Shown piece after piece: positions 5,566 through 55,700 of a DNA stretch of 64,000 nt (position 1 is the first letter of the stretch; each line of letters opens with the position of its first letter). The notes below the pieces were generated by a model. That model made no database searches and had not been told where the DNA came from. It saw nothing but the letters and a program-made list of their open reading frames with translations. The translations under genes were made by a program, and so were the position numbers. This DNA is from Terriglobia bacterium. Its GTDB lineage: Bacteria > Acidobacteriota > Terriglobia > Terriglobales > Acidobacteriaceae. The stretch lies in NCBI GenBank assembly GCA_020073495.1, contig JAIQFD010000004.1, positions 361,001 to 425,000 on the forward strand, written 5' to 3'.

Positions 5566-5627
5566 CTTGTGACTTCGCAGACGCTGCCGTATCATTTTCA
5601 GTGCCATATTGGCCCGAGGCTTCCCCC

Positions 5628-6326
5628 ATGGAACCGCAAGAATTCTGGCGCGAGATGGAGCGCCGCATCGCTCCCTACGATCTTCTCTGTCATCCTCTCT
5701 ACAAGGCCTGGAGCGCCGGCGAACTCACCCGCGAAGACCTGAAGCAATACGCTTCCGACTATTACCACCACGTTGCGGCTTTCCCCACCTATCTCAGCGC
5801 GTTCAACGCCCGCCTTTCCGCCGGGCCGCTGCGCGAGGCGGTGATGGCCAATTACAGCGATGAGCTCGGCGTCGGCTCCCCCGACGGACGCCCCCACGAC
5901 GAGATCTGGCTCGACTTCGCCGAAGGCGTAGGCGCGCATGCCGCCGAGGTCCGCGCCCAGCAGCCCGTCCAGGAAGTGCGCGACCTGATCGACACTTTCC
6001 TGCGCATCGCACGCACCGCATCCAATCCCGAAGTGATTGCCGCGTTCTGGGCCTACGAGTCTCAAGTCCCGCGCCTCGCCCGCGAGAAGTACGTCAAGCT
6101 GCGCGAGAAGTACGCGGCCGACGATGTCACTTGCGGCTACTTCGACCTGCACGCCATCGCCGACGTCTACCACGCCCAGACCTGGAAGCGGAAACTGGGC
6201 TACGAGCTGCGCGACAATCCTGGCCTCGAAGAGGCCGCGCTCAACGCCGCCGAAGAGGCCGCCAAGGCCCTCTGGCGCGCCCTCGACGGCATCGACCGCA
6301 AGCGCAAGCAACGCGTCGCCGCCTAG
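5628..6326 (+). CDS. CADD/PqqC-like heme-oxygenase-fold protein, candidate pABA synthase
   Basis: 232 residues from ATG 5628 (MEPQEFW). The sequence LTREDLKQYASDYYHHV followed by AFPTYLSAFN, and later YFDLHAIADVYHAQ, fits the TenA/PqqC/CADD superfamily. The closest subgroup I recognise is CADD, the self-sacrificing di-metal oxygenase of Chlamydia that makes p-aminobenzoate from one of its own Tyr residues. Metal-ligand-type Glu/His residues are visible in these motifs. Assignment to CADD over PqqC rests on motif similarity and on the lack of any pqq gene here; folC nearby is weak support for a folate role. It is divergent from the esterase. Confidence 0.7.
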   Translation: MEPQEFWREMERRIAPYDLLCHPLYKAWSAGELTREDLKQYASDYYHHVAAFPTYLSAFNARLSAGPLREAVMANYSDELGVGSPDGRPHDEIWLDFAEGVGAHAAEVRAQQPVQEVRDLIDTFLRIARTASNPEVIAAFWAYESQVPRLAREKYVKLREKYAADDVTCGYFDLHAIADVYHAQTWKRKLGYELRDNPGLEEAALNAAEEAAKALWRALDGIDRKRKQRVAA

Positions 6327-6418: not shown

Positions 6419-6826
6419 ATGCCCAAACCCGTTCCCCCCGGCGCTCGCGCCGAGATTGAAGAAACCGTCACCCACGAGCTCACCCTCACCGCGCACCATC
6501 CTGAGCTGCCGCCCGTCTATTCCACGCCCGACATGGTCCGGCTCATGGAGACTGCCTGCTTCTACGCCCTCCAGCCTTACGCCGAGGGCGACGAGATCAC
6601 CGTCGGCACCGCCATCCACGTCACCCACACCGCCCCCACCGGCATCGGCGCCAAGGTCAAGGCCGAGGCCGTGCTCGAATCGCTCAACGGCCGCTTCTAC
6701 ACCATGCGTGTCCGCGCCTGGATGTCGAACGGCAGCGGCGGCTGGCAGGAGATCGGCTCCGGCACCGTCGACCGCGCCTTCGTCAGCGTCGGCAAATTCC
6801 TCGCCCGCATGTCCAAGAAGTCCTAA
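6419..6826 (+). CDS. Hot-dog thioesterase, FlK-like
   Basis: 135 residues from ATG 6419. The pattern matches single-domain hot-dog thioesterases related to fluoroacetyl-CoA thioesterase FlK (COG5496): a TPDMVRLMETAC helix carrying the catalytic-type Glu, then TVGTAIHVTHTAPTGIG with the conserved His. Such enzymes hydrolyse small acyl-CoAs in the cytoplasm; the physiological substrate is unknown. The start is preceded by the short repeat GCTAGTAGCTAGGAGCTAG instead of a clear Shine-Dalgarno, so the exact start is uncertain. It lies 92 nt after the CADD-like gene on the same strand. Confidence 0.8.
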   Translation: MPKPVPPGARAEIEETVTHELTLTAHHPELPPVYSTPDMVRLMETACFYALQPYAEGDEITVGTAIHVTHTAPTGIGAKVKAEAVLESLNGRFYTMRVRAWMSNGSGGWQEIGSGTVDRAFVSVGKFLARMSKKS

Positions 6827-7079: not shown

Positions 7080-8348
7080 ATGCGCAAACTCGCTTTCGCT
7101 CTCGTCCTGCTGCTCGCCACCATCGCCACCGCCCAGGTTCGCACCGTCGTCCGCGCCGGACGCCTCCTCGACGTCAGGACCGGCCAGCTCCTCCGCAATC
7201 AGGCCATCGTCATCGAAGGCGACAAGATCGTCTCGGTTGGGGCCGCTGCCGACACCAAGGGCGCACAGGTCATCGACCTGCCCAACGCCACCGTTCTCCC
7301 CGGCCTCATCGACGTGCACACGCACCTCACTTACGATCCCGGCAACATCGCCATGCAGATTGTGACCAACTCCGGCGCGCGCGAGGCGCTGATCGGCGCC
7401 AGGAACGCCCGCATCACCCTGGAGGCCGGCTTTACCGCCGTGCGCAACGTCGGCGCCTACCACTATGCCGACATCGCCCTGCGTGACGCCATCAACGCCG
7501 GCGACATCCCCGGGCCCCGCATGCTCGTTTCCGGTCCCGCTCTCAGCATCACCGGCGGACATTGTGACGACAACCTTCTTCCCTTCGAGTACCACCACAG
7601 CGCTGAGGGCGTGGCCGATGGCGTCGAAGCCGTCCAGCACAAGACTCGCGAGATCATCAAGTACGGCGCCGACTTCATCAAGGTCTGTGCCACCGGCGGC
7701 GTGCTCTCCAGGGGCGACGACCCCCGCCACTCCCAGTACACCCTGGAGGAGATGAAGGCCATCGTCGCCGACGCCCACCGCCTCGGACGCAAGGTCGCCG
7801 CCCACGCCCACGGCGCCGAGGGTATCCGCTGGGCCTCCATGGCCGGCGTCGACTCCATCGAGCACGGCTCCTACATCGACGACGCCGCCATCGCCGAGAT
7901 GAAGAAGAATGGCACCTATCTCGTGCCTACGCTCTTCCTCCAGCAGTGGTTCCTGGAGAACGCGGAGAAGGTCGGCGCCCCCCGCTACGCCATCGACAAG
8001 GCGAAGATGGTCTTTCCCGAAGCGCAGAAGAACCTGAAGCACGCCATCCAGAGCGGCGTGAAGGTCGCACTCGGCACCGACTCCGCCGTCTACCCCCACG
8101 GCCTCAACGCCGGCGAGTTCGCCGTCTACGTCAGGATGGGCATGACCCCGATCCAGTCCATCCAGACCGGCACTATCAACGCCGCCGATCTCATGGGCTG
8201 GTCCGGCCGCGTCGGCGCCCTCGAACCCGGCAAGTTCGCCGACCTCATCGCCGTGGACGGCGACCCCACACAGGACGTCACCACCCTCCAACACGTGAAG
8301 TTCGTCATGAAAGGTGGCAAGGTCTACAAGAACGAGTACGCCAAGTAG
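7080..8348 (+). CDS. Exported amidohydrolase (imidazolonepropionase/prolidase-like)
   Basis: 422 residues from ATG 7080 with a signal peptide ([19 protein letters not shown]). This is the metal-dependent amidohydrolase superfamily (COG1228 type). The first metal motif is HTHLTYD, a possible bridging Lys sits in [13 protein letters not shown] and IEHGS supply further His ligands, and [11 protein letters not shown] carries the catalytic-type Asp. The C-terminal part [13 protein letters not shown] is typical of the family's beta-sandwich closure. Characterised relatives are Xaa-Pro and Xaa-Arg dipeptidases; the substrate here cannot be read from sequence. It is followed after about 120 nt by the GrdB-like selenoprotein, with an AATTACCCGATTACTC-type repeat in between. 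Confidence 0.85.
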
Positions 8349-8470
8349 ATTGGGAGACGAGCAATTGGGTAATTGCTTCCCGAAATGGTTCTCAATTACC
8401 CGATTACTCAATTACCCGATTTTTGCGTCCTCGCTTCGCCGCGACGCATCTGTCTCTCCCGATGCTCCAA

Positions 8471-9136
8471 ATGTCCCGCAAGTGCGTCCCCTACACGCCG
8501 GTCACCTCCAAGCTGGCCGAGCTGACGGTCGCTCTGGTTTCCTCCACCGGCGTCTACCTCATGGACCAGCCGCCGTTCAACGACGACGGCGACGAAACCT
8601 TCCGCGTACTCCCCGGCGACCTCAACGTCTCCGACCTACGCTTCAAGCACGGCCATTACGACACCAGCGAAGCGATCAAAGACCCCAACTGCGTCTTTCC
8701 CATCGAGCGTCTCCGCAAACTCGCCGCCGAAGGCTTCATCAAGGCGGTCTCCAACAAGCACATTGGTTGCAAAGGATTCTCTACCGACCTCAAGAAGCAG
8801 TACGAGATCATGGCCCCCGGCATCGCCAACGAGATCGAGCGCTCCCAGGCCGACGCCGTCGTCCTCACCGGCGGTTGACCGGTCTGCCATCGGGTAATCG
8901 TTGCGGTGCAACGAGAGATAGAAGCCAAAGGTATCCCGACCGTGCTCATCACGGTGGTGCCCGCGGAATCGCGGGCCATGCGCCCTCCCCGCGCCGTCTA
9001 TCCCAGGGGAAACACGCTCGGCCGCGTCCTGGGCTCCGCCGGCGAGCGCGAGAAACAGACGCGCGTCCTCTCCACCGCCTTGCGCCAGTTTGAGTCCCAG
9101 CAACTCCCCGGCAGCATCATCGAATTCGAGCCGTAG
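8471..9136 (+). CDS. GrdB/PrdB-family selenoprotein with in-frame UGA (Sec)
   Basis: Translation from ATG 8471 (an in-frame ATG at 8462 is an alternative) runs to TGA 8876-8878 and continues in the same frame to 9136, for 221 residues. The UGA falls in LTGG-U-PVCHR. Relatives in the glycine/sarcosine/betaine/D-proline reductase B family (PF07355) carry CPVCH at this point, and true GrdB/PrdB carry UxxC. Both halves match the family: VALVSSTGVYLMDQPPF and HYDTSEAI before the UGA, GIPTVLITVVPAES and PPRAVYP after it. A perfect 7-bp hairpin (TCGTTGC-GGT-GCAACGA, 8898-8914) has its GGU loop 26 nt after the UGA, the right place for a bacterial SECIS. This is probably a thiol/selenol redox enzyme; the substrate is unknown. 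Confidence 0.85.
8898..8914 (+). promoter_or_regulatory. Candidate bacterial SECIS hairpin
   Basis: Stem TCGTTGC/GCAACGA with a GGT loop, 19-36 nt after the UGA at 8876. A GG/GU loop at this distance is what SelB recognises in bacterial selenoprotein mRNAs. Confidence 0.65.
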
Positions 9137-9289: not shown

Positions 9290-10027
9290 ATGTCCCAAGC
9301 CACCCAGGCCGAGACCCGTCCCGCCGCCGACGTCGTCCGTTCCGTCGCCGTTTCCCAGGCCCCCAACGGAGTCTGCTACGCCATGTCCGGCGAGACCGCT
9401 CTGGCCGCCCACGACCTCGACCGCATGGTCGCCGTTGTGCCCGGCGCCATCGCCGCCGCACTGGAGCGCAAGGCCTACTACTTCGTGCCTCTCACCGTCA
9501 GCCGCGGCGACGAAACCCTCATCGCCGACCGCTACGACATCGCCCTCAGCGACCAGGCCGTCTGCCACCGCAATCTCGACATGGGACAGGCGCAATGCGT
9601 CTTCATCTCCACCCGCCTCATGGACGACAAGTTCTCCGTCGCCTTCGAGTTCTACATCAACGTCGGACACGCCTTCGTGGAGCGCGCCGGCGTCTCCCGC
9701 GACTTCGCCGACCTCGCTTGGAAGCAGGTCCTCGACAAGGCCCGCGGCGAGACCTCCCTCGACGCCCACGAGCTGCGCAAGATCGCCACCACCTCCGGCC
9801 CCGACGCCGAGCGCGCCCGCAACGAGTACTTCGAGGCCGCCTTCTCCGACGTCATCGCCATCTACCTGCTCTCCATGTATCTCGACGTGGATTACTACGA
9901 ACTCCGCGAGCGCGACTATCCCTTGCTCGCTCCCGCCCCCCTGGCCGAACGCCTGCGCAAGATCAACGAGCTCTTCCCACCGAATCCGGGCTTCGAGTTC
10001 GCTATCTACTACCGCCGCCGCACGTAG
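9290..10027 (+). CDS. Conserved-looking protein of unknown function
   Basis: 245 residues from ATG 9290. Not recognised. It is soluble, with no signal peptide or membrane segment. Notable stretches are SRGDETLIADRYDIALSD, a mixed alpha/beta middle with EFYINVGHAFVERAG, and a Tyr-rich end (DVDYYELRERDYP, EFAIYYRRR). Codon use matches the neighbours, so it does not look recently acquired. The -10-like box 8 nt before the ATG suggests a leaderless mRNA. It lies between the GrdB-like selenoprotein and ruvA, each separated by a repeat block, so it is probably its own transcription unit. Confidence 0.6.
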   Translation: MSQATQAETRPAADVVRSVAVSQAPNGVCYAMSGETALAAHDLDRMVAVVPGAIAAALERKAYYFVPLTVSRGDETLIADRYDIALSDQAVCHRNLDMGQAQCVFISTRLMDDKFSVAFEFYINVGHAFVERAGVSRDFADLAWKQVLDKARGETSLDAHELRKIATTSGPDAERARNEYFEAAFSDVIAIYLLSMYLDVDYYELRERDYPLLAPAPLAERLRKINELFPPNPGFEFAIYYRRRT

Positions 10028-11093: not shown

Positions 11094-11184
11094 CCCAGTC
11101 CCGCAGGGACGGTATACGTTAGCCCAGCACGGAAGTGCTGGGTAGGTTCCCATTTAGCAGCGAGAGTCCCTCAGGGACGGCACA

Positions 11185-54650: not shown

Positions 54651-55700
54651 ATGACAGACGTGAAAACGGTCCGCCTGACGGAAGCGGTGAAGGCGGCGGG
54701 TTGAGCGTCCAAGCTGAGTCCGGCGGTGCTGGACGCGGTGCTTGGGAAATTAGCCCGGCAACAGGACGAGCGGGTGCTGGTCGGCTTCGACAAAGCCGAC
54801 GACGCCGGGGTGTATCAACTCGACGAAGACACGGCGCTGGTGCAGACGGTGGATTTCTTCACCCCCATCGTGGACGATCCGTACACCTTCGGGCAGATCG
54901 CCGCGGTGAATGCGCTGAGCGACGTTTACGCGATGGGAGGCCGGCCCATGAGCGCGTTGGCCATGGTGTGCTTCCCGGAGAAGGGCGACGTGGCGGTGCT
55001 GGAGCAGATCCTGGCAGGCGGCCTGTCGAAGATGGTCGAAGCCCAGTGCACGGTGATCGGCGGGCACAGCATCCGCGATGAGGAGATCAAGTTCGGTTAC
55101 GCGGTGACGGGGACGATCCACCCGCAGCGCGTCCTGACCAACTCGGGTGCGGAGGCCGGCGACGAGCTGATCCTGACCAAGGCGCTAGGAACGGGCGTGA
55201 TCTCGACCGCCATCAAGCGCGGGAAAGCGGAGCCGGGGTGGGTGGAAGCGGCCACCCGTTCCATGATCACGCTGAACCGGGTTGCGGCGGATGTGGTGCG
55301 CGAGAGCTACGCCGGGGTGCACGCCATGACCGACATCACTGGGTTCGGGCTGATCGGGCACGCGCGCGAGATGGCGCTGGGCAGCGGCGTCGGCTTGCGC
55401 ATCCATTCCTCGGCGGTACCGCTGCTCACCGGGGCGCTGGAGTGCGTGCGCGCGGGGTTCGTGCCGGGCGGGCTGAAGGCCAACCGCGAGTTCGCGGAGT
55501 GTTTGGTGGGGTATGCCGGCGGGGTCAGCGACGAGCGCAGGACTATCCTCCACGATCCGCAGACGTCGGGCGGGCTGCTGATCTCGGTGGCGGCGGGCGA
55601 CTGCAAGGGTTTGCTGGACAAACTACGCCACCAGGGCGTGGAAGCCGCGGAGATCGGAGAAGTGGTTGCGCAGGCGCAGCCGCTGATCAGCGTAGATTGA
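54651..55700 (+). CDS. selD: Selenophosphate synthase, itself a selenoprotein (Sec18)
   Basis: 349 residues from ATG 54651 with TGA 54702-54704 read as Sec. SelD makes selenophosphate from selenide and ATP for Sec-tRNA and selenouridine. The start is MTDVKTVRLTEAVKAAG-U-A, then SKLSPAVL; the U replaces the catalytic Cys of the (C/U)xxK loop, and the Lys is three residues later. The rest is the normal family: VQTVDFFTPIVDDPYTFGQI, GGRPMSALAM, GGHSIRDEEIKFGYAVTG, TDITGFGLIGHAREMA. A plain ORF search would miss the first 25 residues. A stem of 7 pairs with one bulged A (54707-54734) follows the UGA as SECIS candidate. Confidence 0.93.
54707..54734 (+). promoter_or_regulatory. Candidate SECIS stem-loop in selD
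   Basis: GTCCA-(A)-GC pairs with GC-TGGAC around a 13-nt loop, starting 3 nt after the UGA. The fit to the bacterial SECIS consensus is weaker than in the 8471 gene. Confidence 0.4.

Follow-up and report, generated by a model that had tools for sequence, protein, structure and literature searches.

An acidobacterial PrdB-like selenoprotein gene with a possible link to peroxiredoxins

The subject of this work is a PrdB-like gene in a 64,000-nucleotide stretch of a Terriglobia bacterium genome (Acidobacteriota; GenBank assembly GCA_020073495.1, contig JAIQFD010000004.1, positions 361,001 to 425,000 of the forward strand), which as a whole is called the window. A single TGA at position 8876 splits the frame of this gene, and the UGA is almost certainly decoded as selenocysteine (Sec) by SelA, SelB, tRNA-Sec and SelD with the help of a hairpin at 8898-8914. 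The protein is very probably no subunit of D-proline reductase, since searches of the genome turned up no pyruvoyl partner. We consider a Sec-containing oxidoreductase that partners a peroxiredoxin, and not a proline reductase, to be the best overall explanation, one that has about an even chance of being correct. Genes of this kind are broken at the TGA when read with the standard code, and their family name can evoke proline metabolism even though such a role is unlikely.

The frame from ATG 8471 or ATG 8462 to TAG 9134-9136 was the same on both sides of the TGA and was intact from the TGA to its end. Read with Sec, it encodes a product of 221-224 amino acids that contains the motif TGGUPVCHR. 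The alignment of the PrdB model (TIGR04483) ran across the TGA, from residue 8 to residue 214, with a score of 166 bits (165.8 bits), which bears out the claim of an original prediction, made from the DNA letters, that the two sides belong to one frame and one family. The PF07355 (GRDB) model matched residues 5-133, ending just N-terminal of the Sec, with 45.4 bits, above the Pfam gathering cut-off of 22 bits. The Sec/Cys position and the Cys of the UxxC motif were among the 19 columns that were invariant in an alignment of 16 sequences, the window protein included. In 27 of the 28 members of the acidobacterial clade to which the protein belongs, an ATG lies two to six codons ahead of the stretch aligned to 8471, and a Met at the 8471 place was missing outside the window's own subgroup, L093 excepted, so 8462 is the likelier start and would give the N terminus MLQMSRK.

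The window's subgroup has eight members, the seven others being 67-88% identical to the window protein. The Sec place is occupied by TGA in the window and in four other assemblies (L019, L058, L021 and L022) and by TGT or TGC in L059, L060 and L061, in agreement with the prediction that Cys stands in homologues where the window has U-PVCHR. Downstream of the TGA, nonsynonymous divergence (dN) was 0.07-0.23 versus a synonymous divergence (dS) of 0.47-1.03, values similar to those of the upstream part, and both halves of the gene, on either side of the TGA, are under purifying selection.

The predicted hairpin with a GGU loop is a perfect stem of 7 bp (TCGTTGC-GGT-GCAACGA) with a spacing of 26 nt from the UGA to the loop, and it resembles a selenocysteine insertion sequence (SECIS). 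The five subgroup members with Sec had identical stem letters (UCGUUGC-GG(U/C)-GCAACGA), and among these members all five amino-acid-invariant codons within the hairpin were unchanged versus 31 of 116 outside it (Fisher p=0.0019). The three members with Cys had a weakened stem, and there the longer fold gave way to others. Behind the UGA, 14 of 16 Sec homologues of the peroxiredoxin-linked type described below form a fold whose loop is GGUC but whose stems differ, the exceptions being L063 and L095. When the same peptide was recoded synonymously 20,000 times, an equally long Watson-Crick hairpin arose in 246 cases (417 when G-U pairs were counted), and a comparable one stood behind 27 of the 1,575 TGA triplets that make up all those of the window. 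The minimum free energy of the 66 nt around the hairpin was unremarkable (z -0.41), and the energy z-score was uninformative. A read-through scan of the window, which required 25 upstream codons and by this cut misses selD, counted 255 TGA flanked by open frames. A 7-bp hairpin accompanied 11 of them, 8876 included, and by eye the other ten did not appear to be coding.

The source genome (3.70 Mb in eight contigs) contains selA (464 bits), selB (373 bits together with a neighbouring piece), a tRNA-Sec with anticodon UCA (65.5 bits, also called by ARAGORN) and selD (376 bits); selA, selB and selC, for whose absence the original prediction had advised a check, are thus all present. The selD gene lies within the window and is its second selenoprotein gene. 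Homologues of either branch were detected at E<=0.001 in 17 of 100 genomes searched, the source genome included, and 16 of these 17 had a strong SelA (>200 bits). This co-occurrence is weak support because SelA is common anyway (77 of the 100 genomes).

The machinery, the conserved TGA, the Cys homologues, the SECIS-like hairpin and the purifying selection downstream together uphold the prediction that the gene needs UGA to be read as Sec, and leave little room for a sequencing error or a pseudogene. Such an explanation is scarcely credible and was rejected, since the same TGA is present in four relatives from other assemblies, the frame is open to its end, and dN is well below dS after the TGA; what can be said for it is that the evidence for a selenoprotein comes from assemblies alone. 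That dependence on assemblies weighs against Sec decoding, as do three further points. Taken alone, the GGU hairpin would arise by chance in 1-2% of cases. The three Cys members group in a single branch (100/100), so the decay of their hairpin and the change from Sec to Cys count as one event. Finally, G001, a genome of the same genus assembled in 260 contigs, shows no SelA, perhaps because the assembly has a gap. For the study of Sec loss, the three natural Cys forms, with their decayed hairpin, make a tidy set.

The relationship of the protein to PrdB and GrdB was evaluated with a tree of 48 proteins, rooted on the GrdB-like branch (99/96). The window protein lay outside the PrdB branch, in an acidobacterial clade (100/99) that was sister to six Bacillota PrdB (100/100), and the window's subgroup was grouped with L097-L099 at 94/88. 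The tree included 11 of 23 GrdB-like loci, and the remaining ones were called GrdB-like from lower profile scores and the motif. On the TIGR04483 model, whose equivalog cut-off is 300 bits, two true PrdB scored 354.8 and 370.4 bits, the window protein and three clade members 129-191 bits, and a GrdB-like protein 155 bits; the window protein and the clade members tested were all under the cut-off. The motif is UGTC in five Sec-containing Bacillota PrdB and CGTC in a sixth. Among the acidobacterial Sec forms it is UPxC, which is UPVC in the window, or, in six more distant ones (L089, L090, L091, L092, L093 and L095), UPxVC with three residues between Sec and Cys instead of two. The models for GrdB, GrdF and GrdH (TIGR01917, TIGR01918, NF040794 and NF040795) gave 50-58 bits versus cut-offs of 65-800 bits, none of which was reached; the TIGR01918 score was 52 bits with a cut-off of 65.45 bits.

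A match to PrdA was absent from 10 of 10 clade genomes searched, including the source genome, and a Terrisporobacter plasmid used as control gave 976.5 bits. PF09338, the wider pyruvoyl-subunit family, went unmatched in 21 of 22 clade genomes, again including the source genome, with a positive control; in the exception (G464), the PF09338 proteins are encoded on a separate contig (C53) beside weak matches to the PrdB profile. A plasmid search found PrdB homologues in 22 Bacillota records and two distant alphaproteobacterial ones. No prdA is annotated within about 5 kb of the prdB gene on a plasmid of Peptoclostridium acidaminophilum (L084, 4941-5654). It is very unlikely that the window gene encodes a true D-proline reductase PrdB that works with an unrecognised substitute for PrdA. 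The best matches to true PrdB, those of Ligilactobacillus and Terrisporobacter, are 40-41% identical to the window protein over 95% of its length, and the PrdB branch is sister to its clade, but the 166 bits scored are well short of the 300-bit cut-off and of the 355 and 370 bits of true PrdB and about equal to the score of the GrdB-like protein. The cut-off, the UPVC motif in place of UGTC and the PrdA and PF09338 partners searched for and not found led us to reject a true D-proline reductase. The assignment to the GrdB/PrdB family in the original prediction therefore stood at the level of PF07355 and fell at the level of PrdB, and it was fair in calling the role outside Stickland fermenters unclear.

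Outside the window's subgroup, a peroxiredoxin gene was found directly upstream and on the same strand in all 19 clade genomes with upstream DNA. Genomes of this linked type number 20, of which L064 was dropped for want of upstream DNA, and six of the 19 went into the peroxiredoxin profile, the other 13 being independent of it. No peroxiredoxin was found within about 1.5 kb in the 22 examined GrdB-like loci with upstream DNA. The 23 GrdB-like loci comprised eight from the 100-genome search and 15 of the 30 loci from another search, with many further GrdB-like matches beyond these; L034 was dropped because it had no upstream DNA, and L100, on the GrdB-like side and also without upstream DNA, was left out of both counts. 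Entries from the same genome were counted once (L063 and G090, L065 and G075, L068 and G097, L087 and G075, L058 and G002, L061 and G024). The aligned ends of the linked genes were 11-264 nt apart, and stop and start overlap as TAATG in L062 and L067. No other neighbour was common to at least three of 12 phylum-wide loci (seven families), three of the stretches being short.

In 18 of the 19 linked peroxiredoxins the peroxidatic residue was encoded by an in-frame TGA (TPVU), and G107 had Cys. Thirteen of the 19 had no Cys beyond the active site; the other six had a second Cys, four in an SVPC or NVPC stretch and two in KGIC. Most linked peroxiredoxins thus look like one-Sec enzymes that would need an outside reductant because they have no second Cys, and this, with their position directly upstream, suggests that the PrdB-like protein is the partner. 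The pairing of the clade with a peroxiredoxin is a new lead and makes a testable protein pair. Such a pair was not found in the covered parts of the literature on PrdB, selenocysteine, peroxiredoxin, proline reductase and Acidobacteria selenoproteins, nor in the operon section of a 2026 review (PMC13188914), and the same literature gave no partner or reaction of PrdB outside proline reductase.

For the clade, a role as thiol or selenol reductant of a peroxiredoxin is plausible on the gene data, somewhat short of an even chance, and for the source genome it is less probable still. In this role, the selenolate of the PrdB-like protein would attack the oxidized peroxiredoxin, the UxxC Cys three residues on would resolve the mixed bond to give a Se-S form, and a cellular dithiol would re-reduce that form. 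This chemistry would be a shortened version of that of PrdB, for which the covered part of one report proposes a selenide-sulphide intermediate that is re-reduced by PrdC (PMC3091704). A broader proposal, that a PrdA-less clade of PrdB was recruited as a dedicated selenol reductant of one-Sec peroxiredoxins and forms a two-gene-operon peroxide relay across Acidobacteriota, is possible and clearly less than likely. If it were true, the branch formed by the window's subgroup would have parted from the partner it first had.

Several observations count against the peroxiredoxin partnership. The neighbourhood by itself shows no reaction. Some unlinked peroxiredoxins also have no second Cys, so this trait is not special to the linked ones, and the Cys counts of the unlinked ones are partial as the site motif was matched in eight of 26 unlinked loci. 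Four linked homologues carry Cys in place of Sec. An adjacent peroxiredoxin was found in none of the eight genomes of the window's subgroup. Sec-peroxiredoxins were present in all six subgroup genomes searched (in the source genome on contig C4 at 207364-207834, 57% identical), and they grouped with those of genomes that have no PrdB-clade protein (100/100) and not with the linked ones; the non-carrier rows of that tree included a second peroxiredoxin of G031, one of G000 and those of genomes that encode GrdB-like proteins. The role in the source genome is therefore less sure than in the clade, since the subgroup has neither an adjacent peroxiredoxin nor one of the linked type, and the bearing of the clade-wide pairing on the window gene is indirect. 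The peroxiredoxin tree gave no support to the source-genome peroxiredoxin as a relic partner, and the surroundings of its gene gave nothing. In L097, L098 and L099 a Sec-peroxiredoxin stands beside a Cys-containing PrdB-like protein, with Sec in one partner alone.

The subgroup bears also on a more general alternative, in which the protein would reduce disulfides or selenenylsulfides of several clients and the peroxiredoxin neighbour would reflect shared regulation under oxidative stress and not a direct reaction. This is a tentative alternative that we judge unlikely overall. It would account for a subgroup that keeps the protein without an adjacent or orthologous linked peroxiredoxin, and the Sec/Cys pair is retained in all aligned members, but across the 12 wider loci a peroxiredoxin is the one neighbour that recurs.

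A metabolic alternative arises from the neighbours of the window gene. An FlK-type thioesterase gene (PF22636) lies upstream on the same strand in six of the eight subgroup genomes, and this pairing occurs in two different wider neighbourhoods, which would fit a PrdB-like, selenol-based cleavage of an acyl or amino metabolite together with the thioesterase. We consider this improbable, because no pyruvoyl subunit that could activate an amino substrate was found, an amidohydrolase gene intervenes in the source genome, and the stretches examined around the other clade members gave no FlK match.

The product is predicted to be a single-domain alpha/beta protein with Sec-Pro-Val-Cys after a strand and at the start of a helix, and in the AlphaFold model the Sec position lies between a strand (residues 129-133) and a helix (residues 137-152). 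With 12 sequences as input, the best of five models had a mean predicted local distance difference test score (pLDDT) of 90.4 and the others 71.7-85.8. No solved relative was found by sequence at E<=1, and Foldseek returned no convincing match, the best having an E value of 3.7e-4 with a TM score of 0.37. The 50 VIA-align matches listed were mostly LacI-core, sugar-binding and dehydrogenase-type alpha/beta folds (best Z 9.8); no entry titled thioredoxin was among them, which excludes nothing.

The coordinates of the features are compiled in Table 1. Other elements of the window include a gene with a Pfam match to haemoxygenase/TenA-like proteins (5601-6326) and, downstream of the selenoprotein gene, an open reading frame of 245 codons (9290-10027, + strand) with no Pfam match at E<=0.001. 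The sole Rfam match of the window at gathering scores was an Acido-Lenti-1 RNA (RF01687, 59.7 bits) at 11097-11142 on the - strand.

Table 1. Features of the window and their coordinates
Feature	Position	Strand	Remarks
PrdB-like (PF07355) selenoprotein gene	8462..9136	+	Probable start ATG 8462, alternative ATG 8471; stop TAG 9134-9136
In-frame TGA, read as selenocysteine	8876..8878	+	Residue 136 from 8471, 139 from 8462; Cys there in L059, L060, L061
Cys codon of the UxxC motif, presumed resolving Cys	8885..8887	+	Invariant in the alignment
SECIS-like hairpin, 7 bp, loop GGU 8905-8907	8898..8914	+	Fold and conservation
FlK-type hotdog thioesterase	6419..6826	+	PF22636, 89 bits; upstream, same strand, 6/8 subgroup genomes
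Amidohydrolase	7080..8348	+	Between the FlK gene and the selenoprotein gene in the source genome
selD, selenophosphate synthetase	54651..55700	+	Own in-frame TGA 54702-54704, motif AAGUASKL; GGU-loop hairpin 54718-54734, 7 pairs, one G-U

Comparison with known systems places the window protein near several families. It resembles PrdB, the 26-kDa selenoprotein subunit of D-proline reductase (TIGR04483), in its similarity over the full length, the Sec at the same place, the UxxC motif and the single domain, and it differs in the score below the equivalog cut-off, the UPVC motif, the genome in which no PrdA was found and the peroxiredoxin gene that adjoins homologues in other branches of its clade. 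With GrdB and proteins annotated as glycine/sarcosine/betaine reductase selenoprotein B family (PF07355, TIGR01918), it shares the Pfam family and UxxC, but those models have 431-435 positions compared with the 221-224 amino acids here, and GrdB-like proteins form a separate branch of the tree. GrdB acts together with GrdE and GrdA. The marine selenoproteins labelled proline reductase PrdB share the family label, UxxC and Sec and occur far from Stickland fermenters. In the parts covered of the Sargasso Sea and Global Ocean Sampling (GOS) surveys of 2005 and 2008 (PMC1088965, PMC2398784), such PF07355 proteins are described outside Stickland bacteria, and the GOS survey (PMC2398784) counts PrdB among the commonest selenoproteins, with 235 Sec forms. 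If the proposed peroxide relay were real, many aerobic selenoproteins called proline reductase might be the same thing. The nearest parallels to the gene pair itself are the operons of a peroxiredoxin with a SelW-like protein and of a peroxiredoxin-like with an AhpD-like protein (PMC13188914, operon section), in which two redox selenoprotein genes likewise adjoin and one encodes a peroxiredoxin or a similar protein, whereas the partner there is SelW-like or AhpD-like and in the acidobacterial pair it is PrdB-like.
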